A stretch of DNA of 41,097 nt, taken from the NCBI GenBank assembly GCA_014896485.1, contig JADBKH010000017.1, positions 1 through 41,097 of the forward strand. Direction: 5' to 3'. The DNA is from Bacillota bacterium (GTDB lineage Bacteria > Bacillota > Bacilli > Bu12). The notes beneath the pieces were generated by a model. The model saw nothing but the letters and a program-made list of their open reading frames with translations. It was not told the origin of the DNA and searched no databases. Position 1 is the stretch's first letter; each line of letters begins with the position of its first letter. Shown here piece by piece: positions 1 through 10,317 of the stretch. Made by a program: the position numbers and the translations under genes.

Positions 1-1
1 A

Positions 2-244
2 GATCAGCAGCTTCGGCTGGGTGTAGATGCGCAGGCGCTTGTCCAGCCGTCCCTAGAAGCACGGCTATACCAAGCGCCGCAAAAGCTCCGATCCATTTCT
101 CATTACACTTACCCACAAATGACAATCATCTGCCGAGCTGCCGGCTCGCAAAAAGTACTTCAATCTAAATTACCGCTTGATGAAAGCACTCTTATTCATG
201 ATTACATAGATGATAGAAGATGCTCAACAAGAATTATTCCGTAG
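2..244 (+). CDS. Possible C-terminal end of an unidentified protein (truncated by window edge)
   Basis: An open frame runs from the window edge through 80 codons to a TAG at 242-244, with no start inside the window. The other two forward frames close earlier. The predicted tail is hydrophilic and ends in LIHDYIDDRRCSTRIIP. I do not recognise a family, and codon choice is only weakly gene-like, with an AT-rich second half. If real, it is the 3' end of a gene upstream of the methionine operon. It could equally be chance openness in an intergenic region. Confidence 0.3.
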   Translation, partial: DQQLRLGVDAQALVQPSLEARLYQAPQKLRSISHYTYPQMTIICRAAGSQKVLQSKLPLDESTLIHDYIDDRRCSTRIIP

Positions 245-381
245 TATCTCTATTCTCCCAGAATTTCACCAGCTGAGCAGCAGCATTCGGAGGGGATGCG
301 CAGATATCCTCCGAGATGCTCCACCATCCCTACCTCTCGGGGCTCGGTTCGTTGTCGACGCCCTAAAACCTGCTCTTTCCT

Positions 382-409
382 TTCACGTTGAGCCGTGATC
401 CCGTACAAT
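382..409 (+). promoter_or_regulatory. Candidate sigma-A promoter for the methionine operon
   Basis: TTCACG (382-387) and TACAAT (404-409) are separated by 16 bp, about 57 bp before the first ATG of the operon. The -35 match is 4 of 6 and the -10 match 5 of 6. A start near 416 would leave a leader of about 50 nt, too short for a SAM-I (S-box), T-box or cobalamin riboswitch. No such element is visible upstream either. This is inference from motif spacing only. Confidence 0.35.
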
Positions 410-465
410 GAAATGCACCACCATAACAAAAAAGTGCATCGCTTCACGGTGTATAGGAGGAACCC

Positions 466-1458
466 ATGCTCCAAAGCACGACCATCGGCAGCTATCCCAA
501 AATCGCAGAAGAGCTCCCGGGGCCTAACGTCCGCAATCAACTCAATCGTCTGGAAAGTGGCAAAGCTGAGATTCGCAGTGTCGAGCAAACCTTTCGTGCC
601 ACGATCGCAAGAAGTGTGGCCGAACAGGAAGAAGCAGGGATCGACCTGCTGACCGATGGCCAAATACGATGGGAGGATCTGCTGACCCCTCTCTGTCGCG
701 ATGCAGCAGGCATGCATCCAGGCGGGCTACTGCGCTGGTACAACAACAATACCTATTACCGCCACCCGGTCATCGAAGGACGCCTCTGGTATTGGGGGGG
801 ATCCAGTCTTGCAGCTACCTGGCGAGAAACCGCCGCATTGACTGACCATCCCCTCAAGGCCGTTCTCCCAGGGCCGATTACTTTCTGGAAAATGTCTGAA
901 AACCGTCATTATCGAGAAGATACTACCCTTCTGTCAGATCTGTGCGATCTGCTGTCCCTAGAGGCCGAAGCGTTGCAAGAAGCAGGGGCAACCGAAATCC
1001 AATGGGATGAACCTTCGTTGGTCTACCACTCTTCTGCTGCATTGCTCGAGCTGGGTCGCACTGCAATGCAACGGGTGGTTGCCAACCTCCACGTACGCAC
1101 GCACCTCGCCCTCTACTTTGGTGCATCCACCCCTTGGTTGGCGCAATTGGCGACGTATCCGGTCGATGTGCTGCTCTTGGATGCCGTCGATGATCCGGCA
1201 CTGATAGAGACGCTGCAGACGGATGCTCTCCCCAAGCCTTTCGGTTTGGGATCGCTGAATGCCCGTGATGTCCGACTGGAAACCACGGAGATGTTAACCC
1301 GCATGTGGGAGGGCATTGCACGCAAACAAGGGGAGCGTTTTAGCTTCGTCCACCCTTCGTGTGGACTTGAATACCTCCCGCATCGTTTCGCTCAGGCCAA
1401 GCTGCAGCGTTTAGGCGCAGCCGTACAGGAATGGAATGGAAAGGTGTTGCCAGCATGA
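466..1458 (+). CDS. MetE-family (core methionine synthase-like) protein with degenerate zinc site
   Basis: A 330-residue homolog of the C-terminal catalytic half of cobalamin-independent methionine synthase, which passes a methyl group to zinc-bound homocysteine. The start is set by AGGAGG at 455-460, 5 nt before the ATG. Family features include LLTDGQIRWED near residue 61, the LPGPITFW strand near 134 and the IQWDEPSL strand near 178. Zinc ligands are compromised: His213 is kept, but the HxC cysteine is Ala215 and the ligand glutamate position appears to be Asp239. Cys299 of the PSCGL motif is present. The downstream paralog has all four ligands. The stop overlaps the next start (ATGA). It may be the counterpart of MetE's non-catalytic N-terminal half, or a diverged enzyme. 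Family assignment is firm; activity is uncertain. Confidence 0.85.
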   Translation: MLQSTTIGSYPKIAEELPGPNVRNQLNRLESGKAEIRSVEQTFRATIARSVAEQEEAGIDLLTDGQIRWEDLLTPLCRDAAGMHPGGLLRWYNNNTYYRHPVIEGRLWYWGGSSLAATWRETAALTDHPLKAVLPGPITFWKMSENRHYREDTTLLSDLCDLLSLEAEALQEAGATEIQWDEPSLVYHSSAALLELGRTAMQRVVANLHVRTHLALYFGASTPWLAQLATYPVDVLLLDAVDDPALIETLQTDALPKPFGLGSLNARDVRLETTEMLTRMWEGIARKQGERFSFVHPSCGLEYLPHRFAQAKLQRLGAAVQEWNGKVLPA

Positions 1459-2435
1459 ATGAACGTTCTCGTCTTCCCCTACTGCCAACGACCAGCGTCG
1501 GCAGTTTTCCAAAACCAGAAAGCCTGCAAAAAGCACGGACACGTCTGCGCCATGGATCGTTGAGCCCACAAGAGCTTACCCACCTGGAACAAGAAGCCAC
1601 CCAAAACGTCATCGCGCTGCAAGAACGGCTCGGAATCGACTTGCTCGTACACGGGGAGATGGAACGCGGCGATATGGAAGAGTACTTTGCCGAGCGTCTG
1701 GACGGTTTTGCCGAGGGCGGTTTGGTCCGATCCTATGGCAACCGGTACTATCGCAAACCGGTCGTCATCGGACCCATCGGACGCAAGGCACTGCTAACAG
1801 TGGACAGCTTCCGCTACGCCCAAAGCCTAACCGACAAACCGATCAAAGGGATCTTTACCGGGCCGTATACCCTCTGTGACTGGGCATTCAATGACTATTA
1901 TCCCGATCGCCGATCGCTGGTACTTGATCTGGCCAGGGTCCTGCACGATGAGGCGGTGGATTTGGCCGCCGCGGGATGCGCGTTTATCCAGATCGATGAA
2001 CCCGCTTTGTCGACTCGCCCCGAAGAAATGGATCTGGCGAAAGAGGCATTGGGCATCATCACCCGCGGCCTGGATGCACATACCATTACGCATATCTGCT
2101 ACGGACATTTTGAAGAGGTCTATCCAGCCATGCTAGAGCTGCCCGTCGATCAGATCGACTTAGAGTTGGCCAACAACCAATTCGAGCTTTTCCGTTCTTT
2201 TGCACAGCATCCTTTTACCAAGGAGATCGGTTTGGGGGTGATCGACGTGCATACTCATACTGTTGAACCTGTCGATGTGATCCGGCAGCGGATCGAACAA
2301 GCGCTCGATTTCTTACGCCCAGAACAGATTTACGTCGATCCGGATTGCGGTCTCAAGACCCGAACCTGGCAAGAAGCGGAGGAAAAACTGACGAACATGG
2401 TCGCTGCCGTACAGGCGGTACGTGCTGCCTTATGA
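1455..2435 (+). CDS. Core MetE-type homocysteine S-methyltransferase (intact zinc site)
   Basis: A 326-residue protein matching only the C-terminal barrel of cobalamin-independent methionine synthase (full MetE is about 750 residues). It should transfer a methyl group, from methyltetrahydrofolate or another donor, to homocysteine. The four zinc ligands are visible: His213 and Cys215 (THICYG), Glu237 (DLELAN) and Cys298 (DPDCGLKTR). The IQIDEPAL strand (178-185) and FTGPYTL (134-140) are also typical. I use the ATG at 1455 because it overlaps the previous stop as ATGA; an in-frame ATG at 1431 lies further inside the upstream gene. The next gene again starts by ATGA overlap, so the three products should be made together. 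YxjG/YxjH of Bacillus and the MesA-D core methionine synthases are relatives; which applies cannot be told here. Confidence 0.88.
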   Translation: MNERSRLPLLPTTSVGSFPKPESLQKARTRLRHGSLSPQELTHLEQEATQNVIALQERLGIDLLVHGEMERGDMEEYFAERLDGFAEGGLVRSYGNRYYRKPVVIGPIGRKALLTVDSFRYAQSLTDKPIKGIFTGPYTLCDWAFNDYYPDRRSLVLDLARVLHDEAVDLAAAGCAFIQIDEPALSTRPEEMDLAKEALGIITRGLDAHTITHICYGHFEEVYPAMLELPVDQIDLELANNQFELFRSFAQHPFTKEIGLGVIDVHTHTVEPVDVIRQRIEQALDFLRPEQIYVDPDCGLKTRTWQEAEEKLTNMVAAVQAVRAAL

Positions 2436-4351
2436 ACCAGCGCTTTCTTGAAGAAATTCACCATCGCCCCATGGTGGCGGATGGTGCGATGGGCAGTCAG
2501 CTGTACAATCGTGGCGTCCCCCGCTTCCTGCCTTTGGAGACACTCAATCTCTCCGAGCCGGCCCTGATCCGTCAAATTCATACAGAGTATCTGTTGGCTG
2601 GCAGCGAGGTCATCACCACCAATACCTTTGGAGCCAACCGTTTGCGGCTGCAGGATCATCCTGCTGCCCATCAAATTTATCGACTCAACCTCGCCGGTGC
2701 CAAACTAGCGCGGGCCGCACGGGAAGAGGTGGGCGAAGCCGCTTTCGTCGGTGGATCGATGGGGCCACTCGGTGTACGGGTTGCCCCTTTTGGCCGACTC
2801 AGCATTGACCAAGCCGAGGCGGTCTTCCGAGAACAGGCAGAAGGGTTGTTGGCAGGTGGTGTCGATCTGTGGATTCTCGAGACTTTTTCAGATCCACAGG
2901 AGCTGGCAGCAGCAATCTTGGCGGTACGTTCTCTTTCCGACCTTCCCATTGTTGCCTCCTTCACCTTCTCCGCAGAAGGCAAGACGCGCTTTGGCCAAGA
3001 TGTGGAAGATGCCGTTCGGCAGTTACTCGCCCTGGCCGTACCAGATATTCTGGGCGTTAACTGTGGTGTAGGCCCTTATGCGGTACGCAGTACGGTTCAC
3101 CGCATGGTAGAAACAATGAATGCCTGCGGCCTTGCCTTGCCCTTGTCCGCCATGCCCAACGCAGGATTGCCCCAACTGGTTGGAGATCAGGTGTTGTATC
3201 CGGCTTCCGCAGCATACATGGCAGAAGAGGCGATGCGGTTGGTCTCCGATGGCGTACACCTTGTCGGTGGATGCTGCGGCACCGGACCAGCGTACATCCA
3301 AGCCCTTGCGACCCAGTTACAACGGGAGACGAACCGCAGCGTTGCCAACACTTCCGATCCGCCTTCCCTTTCGGCAGTGGATCCCGCTTTCCGACAAGAC
3401 GGGACAAATGGTTCGGAGAAGCGCACTTCCGAACAAGTGCGCAACCGAGAGAGTACCTTGTTGGAAGCGCTTGCACAGCGCCGTGCTCTTAGTGTCGAAA
3501 TCGACCCGCCGCGCGGAACCGCGACCGGAAAGATGTTGCGCGACGTTCGTGCCCTGGCCCAGGCGGGCGTCCACTTCATCAATGTCGCAGACAGCCCGAT
3601 GGCCCAGGTACGTATGTCTTCCTTGGCCGCTGCGACCCTATTGCAGCAAGAGGTCGGCATAGAGACCATCCTGCATTTCACGACTCGAGATCGTAACTTG
3701 ATGGGATTGCAGGCCGATCTGATTGGTGCAGATGCATTGGGATTGCGCAACCTGTTGGCACTTTCCGGAGATCCGCCCGCATTGGGCAACTATGCACATG
3801 CCACAGCCGTCTACGATCTGGATTCAGTTGGCCTGATCAAACTGGTACAAAAGCTCAATCACAGCGAAGATGCTGTAGGCAATCACCTGGTGCGACCCAC
3901 CCATTTCGTGGTAGGTGCTGGTGCCAATCCTACGGTTGAAGATCTGGATCGAGAGGTAGATCGTGTCCGTTCCAAATTGGAGGCTGGCGCACAGTTCTTG
4001 ATGACCCAACCTGTCTATGACGCACAGCGTTTCCTCACCTTTCTGCAACAGTTGAATGCCCCCACTATCCCCATTCTACTCGGCATTTTGCCGCTCGCCA
4101 GCTACCAGCATGCCGTCTACCTGCATAATGAAGTGCCGGGCATCTACGTGCCCGACACGGTCCAAGAAAAGTTACGGCAAGCAGGCGAAAAGGGCCGTAT
4201 GGTCGGCATCGAACTCGCCATCCAGTTGTATGAAGCGTTGACTCCCTACGTTTCCGGGGTCTATCTCATGCCTTCATTCGGCCGTTTTGATGAAACAGTC
4301 GAACTGGCACGCGCCTTGTTGGCTCGGATGTCCACCGCCCCGCAAGCTTGA
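2432..4351 (+). CDS. yitJ: Bifunctional homocysteine S-methyltransferase / 5,10-methylenetetrahydrofolate reductase
   Basis: A 639-residue two-domain protein. Residues 1-295 form a homocysteine S-methyltransferase barrel with the zinc cysteines Cys211 (GVNCG) and Cys281-Cys282 (GGCCGTG). Residues from about 345 on are a MetF-type flavin-dependent methylenetetrahydrofolate reductase, with the EIDPPRG start, LLALSGDPP and LMTQPVYD segments. A polar linker joins them. The arrangement equals Bacillus YitJ, which makes 5-methyltetrahydrofolate and moves methyl groups to homocysteine. The open frame extends upstream to 2345, but the ATG at 2432 overlaps the previous stop and matches the family N-terminus. 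It is the last gene of the operon and ends 11 bp from a convergent gene. It would supply the methyl donor for the two MetE-like proteins. Confidence 0.92.
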   Translation: MNQRFLEEIHHRPMVADGAMGSQLYNRGVPRFLPLETLNLSEPALIRQIHTEYLLAGSEVITTNTFGANRLRLQDHPAAHQIYRLNLAGAKLARAAREEVGEAAFVGGSMGPLGVRVAPFGRLSIDQAEAVFREQAEGLLAGGVDLWILETFSDPQELAAAILAVRSLSDLPIVASFTFSAEGKTRFGQDVEDAVRQLLALAVPDILGVNCGVGPYAVRSTVHRMVETMNACGLALPLSAMPNAGLPQLVGDQVLYPASAAYMAEEAMRLVSDGVHLVGGCCGTGPAYIQALATQLQRETNRSVANTSDPPSLSAVDPAFRQDGTNGSEKRTSEQVRNRESTLLEALAQRRALSVEIDPPRGTATGKMLRDVRALAQAGVHFINVADSPMAQVRMSSLAAATLLQQEVGIETILHFTTRDRNLMGLQADLIGADALGLRNLLALSGDPPALGNYAHATAVYDLDSVGLIKLVQKLNHSEDAVGNHLVRPTHFVVGAGANPTVEDLDREVDRVRSKLEAGAQFLMTQPVYDAQRFLTFLQQLNAPTIPILLGILPLASYQHAVYLHNEVPGIYVPDTVQEKLRQAGEKGRMVGIELAIQLYEALTPYVSGVYLMPSFGRFDETVELARALLARMSTAPQA

Positions 4352-5183: not shown

Positions 5184-5196
5184 CACAAGCTCTCCT

Positions 5197-5570
5197 GATG
5201 AAGTCACCCGATAAGCCGAGTTCTGTCCCTCAAGTGTGAGGGGGCAACCATCCATCTCGACTGCACGTTGCCGTGCAGCTCTAGCGACCTACCCGGACGT
5301 ACCGCGGGCCACGGTATCACGTCCCTATACGGTCTTGCTCCAGGTGGGGTTTACCTAGCCGCTTGGTCACCCAAGCGCTGGTGCGCTCTTACCGCACCGT
5401 TCCACCCTTGCCTGTGCTGCTGCGCAGCCATCGGCGGTCCTCATTTCTGTGGCACTTTCCTTGGGATCACTCCCACTGGGCGTTACCCAGCACCCTGCCC
5501 TACGGAGCTCGGACTTTCCTCAGACGCCACCTTTCGGATTGGCGCCCGCGGTTGCCTGGATGACTTCATC
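5197..5570 (-). ncRNA. rnpB: RNase P RNA (type A)
   Basis: The catalytic RNA of ribonuclease P, which matures tRNA 5' ends. On the minus strand the terminal P1 helix is formed by TGAAGTCATCC at the 5' end and GGGTGACTTCATC at the 3' end. Conserved blocks follow in order: GGAAAGTCCGAGCTCC, TAGGGCAGGGTGC, GGTAACGCCC, ACAGAAA, ACCGCCGATGG, GGTGCGGTAAGAGCGCACC, GGTAAACCCCACC, CCGGGTAGG and ACAGAACTCGGCTTATC. The length of about 374 nt, the P13/P14 region and the P16/P17 region match type A (Escherichia coli-like). The B. subtilis-type P5.1/P15.1 elements are not seen. It has its own upstream promoter. Confidence 0.97.
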
Positions 5571-5707: not shown

Positions 5708-7178
5708 ATGAGCCAAGGGCAAAAAGGTGGAAAACACAAGGGATTCTTTGCCTCGAAAAGTGTCGATGCCATCCTCGCCGAAACGCAAGAAGAAGGCCAC
5801 CGTCTGGCCCACTCCCTGGGGGGACTGGACCTGATCTTTATTGGCATCGGTGCACTGATTGGTACGGGCATCTTCGTTCTCCCTGGTATCGGAGCACTTC
5901 GCGCTGGCCCAGCGGTTGCACCCTCTTTTTTGCTCGCAGGTATTGTCAGTAGCTTTGCGGCGCTTACCTACTCTGAGCTGACTTCTACGGTACCCGTTTC
6001 AGGCAGTGCCTATACCTACAGCTACGCCACAATGGGCGAGATAGTCGCATGGATCATCGGATGGGATCTCCTGCTCGAATACGGTGTCGCTTGCAGTACC
6101 GTTGCTGTCGGCTGGTCCGGCTACTTCGACAGCATTCTGGCTGCAATGGGCTTGCACCTGCCAACCCTGATCACTGCCGGTCCCCTCGATCCGCAACATC
6201 CGGGTTTGCTCAATCTACCCCCGCTGGGAATCGTACTGGTGTTGACATGGCTGCTCTCTCGAGGAACACGGCTCTCTTCAAACGTCAACAACATCATCGT
6301 CGCGGTCAAACTGGACGTGATCGTCCTCTTCATTGTCGTTGCTGCCTTTCACGTAAAGCCTGTGAATTGGCATCCTTTCGCCCCCGTTTGGCTTTTCGGG
6401 TATCGCAGTAGGTGCAAGCTTGATCTTTTTTGCCTATATCGGCTTTGATGCAATCTCGACTGCTGCCGAAGAAGCACGCCATCCCCAGCGTGATCTGCCG
6501 TTCGGCCTGATCGGCTCCTTATCCATTGTAACCGTCCTCTATATTGTCTTCTCCCTCTTCGTGACAGGGCTAATCCCCTTTCGCCTGCTGGCCAACCAAG
6601 ACGCCCCCGTCGCCTATGCGTTGCAATACGTCGGGGTCACTTGGGGTGCTGCAGCGGTTTCGGTCGGTGCGTTGGCCGGATTGACAACTGTCATCCTGAT
6701 CGACATTTTTGCCTCCAGCCGCGTGATGCTCGCCATGAGCCGTGATGGTCTGCTTCCCCCTGCCTTCGCGCAGGTCTCTTCAAAAACCAAGGTTCCGCTT
6801 CTGAACACGTGGACGATGGGGATTGGAATTGCAGTCATAGCGGCACTCTCGCCGCTGAACTTGATTGCCAAAATGGCCAATATCGGCACACTTTTTGCCT
6901 TTTTACTGGTGGGCATCGGTGTGATCTATCTTTGTCAGAAACAGCCGGATCTTCCACGACCGTTCCGCGTTCCCGGCTATCCGGTGATCCCGGCACTGAG
7001 TGTGGTTGCCTCGCTTTACCTCATGGTAAACCTGCCAAAGCTCACGTGGATTCGCTTCGGCAGTTGGCTGGTCATCGGCCTGCTGCTGTACCTGTTTTAC
7101 GGGTATCGGCACAGCCGCTTGCGGATGGGAACACTGCCAACAAAACAAAGCGAACGAACACCTACACCACCGCTTTAG
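5708..7178 (+). pseudogene. APC-family amino-acid permease, interrupted by a +1 frameshift
   Basis: Two consecutive frames encode the two halves of one cationic amino-acid/YfnA-type permease. The first half (5708 on, ribosome site AGGGAGG) contains the GIGALIGTGIFVLPG motif of transmembrane segment 1 and about six helices. The second half continues with IFFAYIGFDAISTAAEEA and the remaining helices. The break sits in a run of five C at 6381-6385: removing one C restores HPFAPFGFSGIAVGAS and a single protein of about 489 residues, normal for the family. As written, translation runs out of frame to a stop at 6446-6448. It is either a genuine inactivating indel or a sequencing or assembly error in a homopolymer. 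The second half keeps gene-like sequence, so the lesion is recent at most. Confidence 0.85.
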
Positions 7179-10243: not shown

Positions 10244-10317
10244 TGGGCCCACCAGGATTCGAACCTGGGACCATCCGGTTATGGGCCGGCCGCTCTAACC
10301 GGCTGAGCTATGGGCCC
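10244..10317 (-). tRNA. tRNA with CAU anticodon, probably tRNA-Ile2 (lysidine type)
   Basis: A 74-nt cloverleaf: acceptor GGGCCCA pairs with TGGGCCC, D stem GCTC/GAGC, T stem CCAGG/CCTGG with loop TTCGAAT, discriminator A73 and no encoded CCA. The anticodon loop is CCCATAA, giving CAU. C4-G69 and C5-G68 in the acceptor are TilS recognition pairs, so tRNA-Ile2, read as AUA after lysidine modification, is more likely than elongator Met. Two oddities: position 33 is C instead of the near-universal U, and pair 27-43 is G-A. Either an unusual functional tRNA or a decayed copy. It sits 44 bp after rpoD. Confidence 0.88.

Follow-up and report, generated by a model that had tools for sequence, protein, structure and literature searches.

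The full-length cobalamin-independent methionine synthase MetE (TIGR01371; the T. maritima structure 1xpg; the E. coli enzyme) consists of two homologous barrels with the zinc in the C barrel. The site of the N barrel is disabled; in T. maritima MetE, Tyr232 displaces a determinant of homocysteine binding, and the other ligand positions are occupied by Asp253 and by Cys309, which is retained (PMC539065). Two further arrangements have been described. Split MetE, defined earlier mainly from archaea and one bacterium, Sulfobacillus sp. hq2 (Price et al. 2021, PMC7857596), has adjacent genes for an N-type and a catalytic barrel, each under 400 aa, in genomes where no other methionine synthase was found; a complex has been reported for PF1268/PF1269 of Pyrococcus, and the two genes are adjacent in Sulfobacillus sp. 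hq2 (PMC7857596). Core methionine synthases, comprising MesA-MesD (Price et al.) and core-MetE (PMC7005905), are single zinc-site barrels that act without an N-barrel partner and can use methylcobalamin in vitro (PMC7857596, PMC7005905). A search of the literature on 'split MetE' returned Price et al. as the sole relevant paper.

Analysis of the window, a stretch of 41,097 nucleotides that is one entire contig of a 2.17 Mb Bacillota genome (96% complete), revealed a locus that very probably encodes a split cobalamin-independent methionine synthase, whose two proteins would form a complex and would be active with a folate methyl donor. The open frames confirmed the tandem paralogous genes and ATGA coupling noted in the preliminary description (Table 1); gene 2 starts at the ATG at 1455, and the start at 1431 from the ORF finder is merely the first ATG in the open frame. 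A third gene, which overlaps gene 2 by a second ATGA, belongs to the same unit. As in the split MetE of Price et al., the N-type and catalytic barrels are adjacent, each is under 400 aa, and no other known methionine synthase was found in the genome, with the reservation that one domain of gene 3 might offer another route. Unlike that system as described, the operon adds a fusion of homocysteine S-methyltransferase (HMT) and methylenetetrahydrofolate reductase (MTHFR), and its leader contains no detected SAM riboswitch or other Rfam family, even at a relaxed threshold; scans of promoters and terminators gave matches at chance level. Split MetE is thus a kind already known, and the bacterial spread and the order of fusion in MetE evolution, described below, are extensions of it.

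Table 1. Features of the window, named according to the preferred reading of the locus.
Feature	Position	Strand	Length	Basis or remark
Leader, contig end to gene 1	1..465	+		no Rfam family
Gene 1, N-type (non-catalytic) subunit of probable split MetE	466..1458	+	330 aa	ORF
ATGA, gene 2 start overlapping gene 1 stop	1455..1458	+		sequence
Gene 2, catalytic zinc/homocysteine subunit	1455..2435	+	326 aa	ORF, profiles
ATGA, gene 2/gene 3 overlap	2432-2435	+		sequence
Gene 3, fused homocysteine S-methyltransferase and methylenetetrahydrofolate reductase, PRK08645 type	2432..4351	+	639 aa	
Bacterial RNase P class A RNA	5196-5567	-		316.7 bits
Amino-acid permease-like frame, broken, one part	5708-6448	+	246 aa	
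Amino-acid permease-like frame, broken, other part	6420-7178	+	252 aa	
tRNA gene	10244-10317	-		Rfam, 65.5 bits; reading frames on both strands alongside

Gene 2 is the zinc/homocysteine subunit. The His-x-Cys at residues 213-215, which the preliminary description had pointed out, is present and forms part of a complete zinc site (H213, C215, E237 and C298). Together with the homocysteine residues S17, E68 and D181, gene 2 has the ligands and substrate residues of a MetE catalytic subunit, and the folate-site residues R97, R100 and W143, comprising the folate-tail arginines and the stacking Trp, are kept. The protein scored 415.3 bits against NF003317 (PRK04326; cut-off 406), an NCBIfam model that served as a proxy for PF1269, identifying it as a PF1269-like component within the 400 aa limit of the split type; Meth_synt_2 gave 283.5 bits. 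A single-chain AF2 model (pLDDT 93.3) had 1xpg as its best match (TMq 0.93, 38% identity). Against the full-length MetE model TIGR01371, both genes fell below the curated cut-off of 929.95, with 316.9 bits for gene 2 and 79 for gene 1.

The pair differs from full-length MetE in that the barrels are not fused and have no inter-barrel linker, and in one residue of the pterin site. In T. maritima MetE the pterin ring is bound by Glu583, which corresponds to E. coli Glu605; this position is Thr in gene 2 (residue 187, window 2013-2015). Among 70 split catalytic subunits it is Thr in 53, Val in 13 and Ala in four, whereas all 63 MetE C-domains have Glu, and therefore pterin recognition may differ. 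To judge from these residues, split catalytic subunits may hold the pterin differently or use another pterin. MetE C-domains also have Gln before the SYG motif, where gene 2 has Arg.

Gene 1 carries a MetE-N kind of site. Although the preliminary description held that both genes match only the C-terminal barrel, gene 1 exceeded the cut-offs of both Meth_synt_2 (87.7 bits) and Meth_synt_1, the N-terminal barrel (68.4 bits; cut-off 27 bits). The loss of zinc ligands that it had reported is real, and its pairing of Glu with Asp (E237/D239) was right, but its His-x-Ala pairing was shifted by two residues, since H213-L-A215 of gene 1 and H213-I-C215 of gene 2 bear equal numbers without being homologous. 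Rather than two, three ligands differ: an alignment of 276 domains with MAFFT and an hhalign comparison of the two subunit profiles gave the same result, placing A215, Y217, D239 and C299 at the four positions (His to Ala, Cys to Tyr, Glu to Asp, and the fourth ligand Cys kept). This pattern is that of the MetE N-domains, all 63 of which have Tyr at Cys643 and Asp at Glu665, and Y217, D239 and C299 match Tyr232, Asp253 and Cys309 of the T. maritima N barrel. The ligand loss thus affects three positions and is of the kind seen in the MetE N barrel, and under the preferred reading gene 1 has lost a working zinc/homocysteine site. Some homocysteine-site letters nevertheless persist (S9, D181 and Q66), and N-subunits in general keep more of them than MetE N-domains do. 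The single-chain AF2 model (pLDDT 95.4) had T. maritima MetE 1xpg as its best PDB match, so full-length MetE is the best fold match for both proteins.

Phylogeny of both barrels, which the preliminary description had proposed as a check, placed gene 1 with the N-domains and gene 2 with the C-domains of MetE. The tree covered 99 domains, and active single-barrel relatives formed its outside group. In it, all 29 split N-subunits including gene 1 grouped with 18 MetE N-domains (support 100), and 27 split catalytic subunits grouped with 18 MetE C-domains (support 98); the archaea in this tree are Hadarchaeum-type pairs, and the classic pairs of Pyrococcus, Sulfolobus and Haloferax are absent from it. 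Residue states agreed with this placement. Tyr at Cys643 occurred in 65 of 80 N-subunits and in 63 of 63 MetE N-domains, while Asn at Arg515 and Arg or Lys at His694 were found in every N-subunit (80/80) and every MetE N-domain (63/63), and the two groups also have a one-residue insertion in common; the latter three marks occurred in none of the C-type domains aligned. Gene 1 carries N-type marks at R90, N95 and R267. The position aligned to E. coli Lys117, by motif T. maritima Lys104, which is a folate contact (PMC539065), was Arg in 80/80 N-subunits. A separate duplication giving rise to the split pair, with all split subunits apart from MetE, was rejected (AU p=0.0027). On the strength of the tree and these tests, gene 1 and gene 2 go back to the duplication that also gave the two barrels of MetE, and the second component of the locus qualifies as MetE-N related on length, on Meth_synt_1, in the tree and in the AU tests.

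Comparison with other genomes revealed that the pair is widespread. The relatives sampled included none from the window's genus, family or order. A class sample of 400 genomes searched with gene 1 contained the split form solely in the window's own genome, and the other matches above E=1e-12 were one-chain MetE frames of about 750-820 codons; a phylum sample of 399 genomes contained four more split forms, all with the same three-gene order. A one-per-species scan, for which the probe was an alignment of catalytic subunits, matched 354 stretches, from which 80 loci were kept; gene 1 used alone as a single sequence gave no match against the genome contigs. These loci carried labels of Bacillota, Omnitrophota, Zixibacteria, Chloroflexota, Actinomycetota, Armatimonadota, Planctomycetota, Eisenbacteria, Dictyoglomota, Hadarchaeota and others, with the caution that most come from metagenome-assembled genomes and single phylum labels may be wrong; the locus of Sulfobacillus thermotolerans Kr1 (L143) lies on a complete chromosome. 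The Sulfobacillus loci (L143, L103 and L113) share the window's gene order and are closely related to it. Thus, the split form is not mainly archaeal but is found across many bacterial lineages. The window's phylum contains Sulfobacillus-type genomes as well as one (L061) whose locus is nearly identical to that of a Limnochordaceae metagenome-assembled genome (L083), which places the window's genome in the Bacillota.

Upstream room was available at 77 loci, and at 75 of these the gene immediately 5' of the catalytic one, in the same orientation, is N-type. At one exception (L132) the N-type gene is 2 kb away, and at the other, a Zixibacteria contig (L095:1-5000), no recognisable N-type gene was found in the 5 kb upstream of the catalytic subunit, making it the one clear exception to the pairing. 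The two open frames are not a product of chance, as such genes stand side by side in tens of genomes, and the adjacency required of a split MetE is seen both in the ATGA overlap and in this conservation. Distance matrices of N- and C-subunits were correlated (r=0.72; permutations reached at most 0.14), a value that partly reflects shared ancestry and stands without a control gene. No full-length MetE frame was found in any of 30 other split genomes, and B12-binding_2 was absent in 27 of 35; where present, it lay mostly in short frames, 220-350 codons long with one of 588, which would be too short for a complete MetH. Several split MetE genomes (L195 and L197, also L198-L203) have extra single-barrel PF01717 proteins with HxC intact. 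In 'Bacterium HR32' (L149:310-2424) the N-subunit lies inside an open frame of 704 codons, more than a single barrel needs; either it is fused to a domain upstream or the start was chosen wrongly.

The SAM riboswitch RF00162 (81-93 bits) precedes the N gene in 11 Sulfobacillus-type Bacillota loci (L063, L064, L084, L093, L096, L100, L103, L109, L113, L143 and L150), which ties the operon to methionine/SAM control; upstream of Limnochordaceae-type split loci the Rfam search found none. Nearly every Bacillota locus has the fused HMT-MTHFR gene 3' of the pair, as do several loci from Zixibacteria, and in this sense the split form travels with the fusion. In the window's genome, gene 3 (NF006396, 666.9 bits, cut-off 453; both PF02574 and PF02219 matched) is the single PF02219 (MTHFR) match. 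The same genome contains just two PF01717 proteins and no other MetE, no MetH cobalamin-cap domain B12-binding_2 (PF02607) and no CdhD-type corrinoid iron-sulfur protein (PF03599), within its 96% completeness; three B12-binding matches were found, one of them weak. The pair accounts for how methionine could be made in this genome in the absence of both MetH and a one-chain MetE, and the HMT domain of gene 3 might be another methionine route.

We propose that the (beta-alpha)8 barrel of gene 2 would hold the zinc and bind and activate homocysteine, with its aromatic and arginine residues holding folate, and that gene 1 probably packs against gene 2, barrel face to barrel face, and closes the cleft. 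The closed cleft would be the binding place for methyl-tetrahydrofolate or a related pterin, and the reductase domain of gene 3 would make methyl-tetrahydrofolate and feed the two-subunit MetE. The suggestion of a two-subunit MetE in the preliminary description thus gains support from the tree, the AU tests, the conserved pairing and order, and the methyl-tetrahydrofolate and SAM context. Counting against it are the pterin Glu missing from gene 2, the preference of gene 1 for Meth_synt_2 over Meth_synt_1, and the HMT domain of gene 3.

Other explanations of the locus account for parts of this evidence. Gene 2 could act alone as a core synthase that receives its methyl groups from a corrinoid protein, in the way suggested for MesA/MesB, leaving gene 1 with some other job. 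Like gene 2, the core synthases are one-barrel proteins, and in vitro those described take methylcobalamin (PMC7857596, PMC7005905); some B12-binding domains also occur in the genome, and gene 2 has no pterin Glu. Yet this explanation is improbable, because the N-type neighbour, which core synthases lack, is kept in nearly all loci, MTHFR is in the operon, the folate-tail arginines and stacking Trp are retained, and the genome has neither the corrinoid iron-sulfur protein nor the B12-binding_2 cap domain. Alternatively, gene 1 could be a recent local duplicate of gene 2, decayed or with a new role, in this lineage alone. Its tandem position and 27% identity to gene 2 would fit, but forcing the two genes together in the tree costs 185 log-likelihood units (AU p=1.2e-6), gene 1 nests among MetE N-domains and the N-subunits found in other Bacillota, its frame is open and its fold is predicted with high confidence, leaving this explanation scarcely any probability.

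We also considered whether gene 1 could be catalytically active, as a methyltransferase whose ligands have changed and whose substrate differs. Of the homocysteine/zinc site it retains S9, D181 and C299, and it has Gln at the Glu484 position, as reported for MesA and MesC (Price et al. 2021, PMC7857596). Against activity, Tyr is found at the Cys position, where in T. maritima MetE it removes the homocysteine site (PMC539065), and the ligand letters drift among N-subunits (A, Y, F or Q at the His position; C, S, A, H or G at the Cys726 position), as expected without zinc selection. The preliminary description had named, as a refutation, a phylogeny that puts the first protein in a catalytically active family with different ligands; the tree gave no such placement. 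An active gene 1 therefore seems very improbable, if a little less so than a local duplicate, and a split MetE with a non-catalytic N-type subunit remains the preferred reading.

By the Pfam score filter of Price et al., which asks that Meth_synt_1 exceed Meth_synt_2, gene 1 would be passed over (68.4 versus 87.7 bits). This is a detection filter and not a biological definition; it also loses the adjacent pair AMET1_0514/0515 (PMC7857596), and both MetE domains were matched in all 64 N-subunits searched with Pfam. The filter may be one reason why bacterial pairs have been under-counted. Our assignment settles the annotation of two genes that are likely named simply 'methionine synthase', and cultured hosts such as Sulfobacillus thermotolerans are available for study of the N-barrel role and of the assembly of MetE in evolution.

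With reciprocal rooting, MetE fell within the split type as a neighbour of Hadarchaeum-type pairs, with SH-aLRT values of 98%, 98% and 97-98% on three nested branches, values that the mirrored data inflate. Constraints holding the split rows together were not rejected (p=0.37, 0.64 and 0.38), and monophyly of the split N- or C-subunits is thus compatible with the data. The rooting is consistent with the split pair being the older form and one-chain MetE a later, single fusion from within it, a history that we regard as possible but somewhat less than even in probability. If it were true, the barrel duplicated into separate genes that spread widely in bacteria and archaea, a long split phase preceded one-chain MetE, and this pair would preserve, in a living organism, the state that preceded fusion.

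Elsewhere in the window, downstream of the operon, the two permease-like frames look like parts of a single transporter in different frames, with the frameshift arising from assembly error or mutation.
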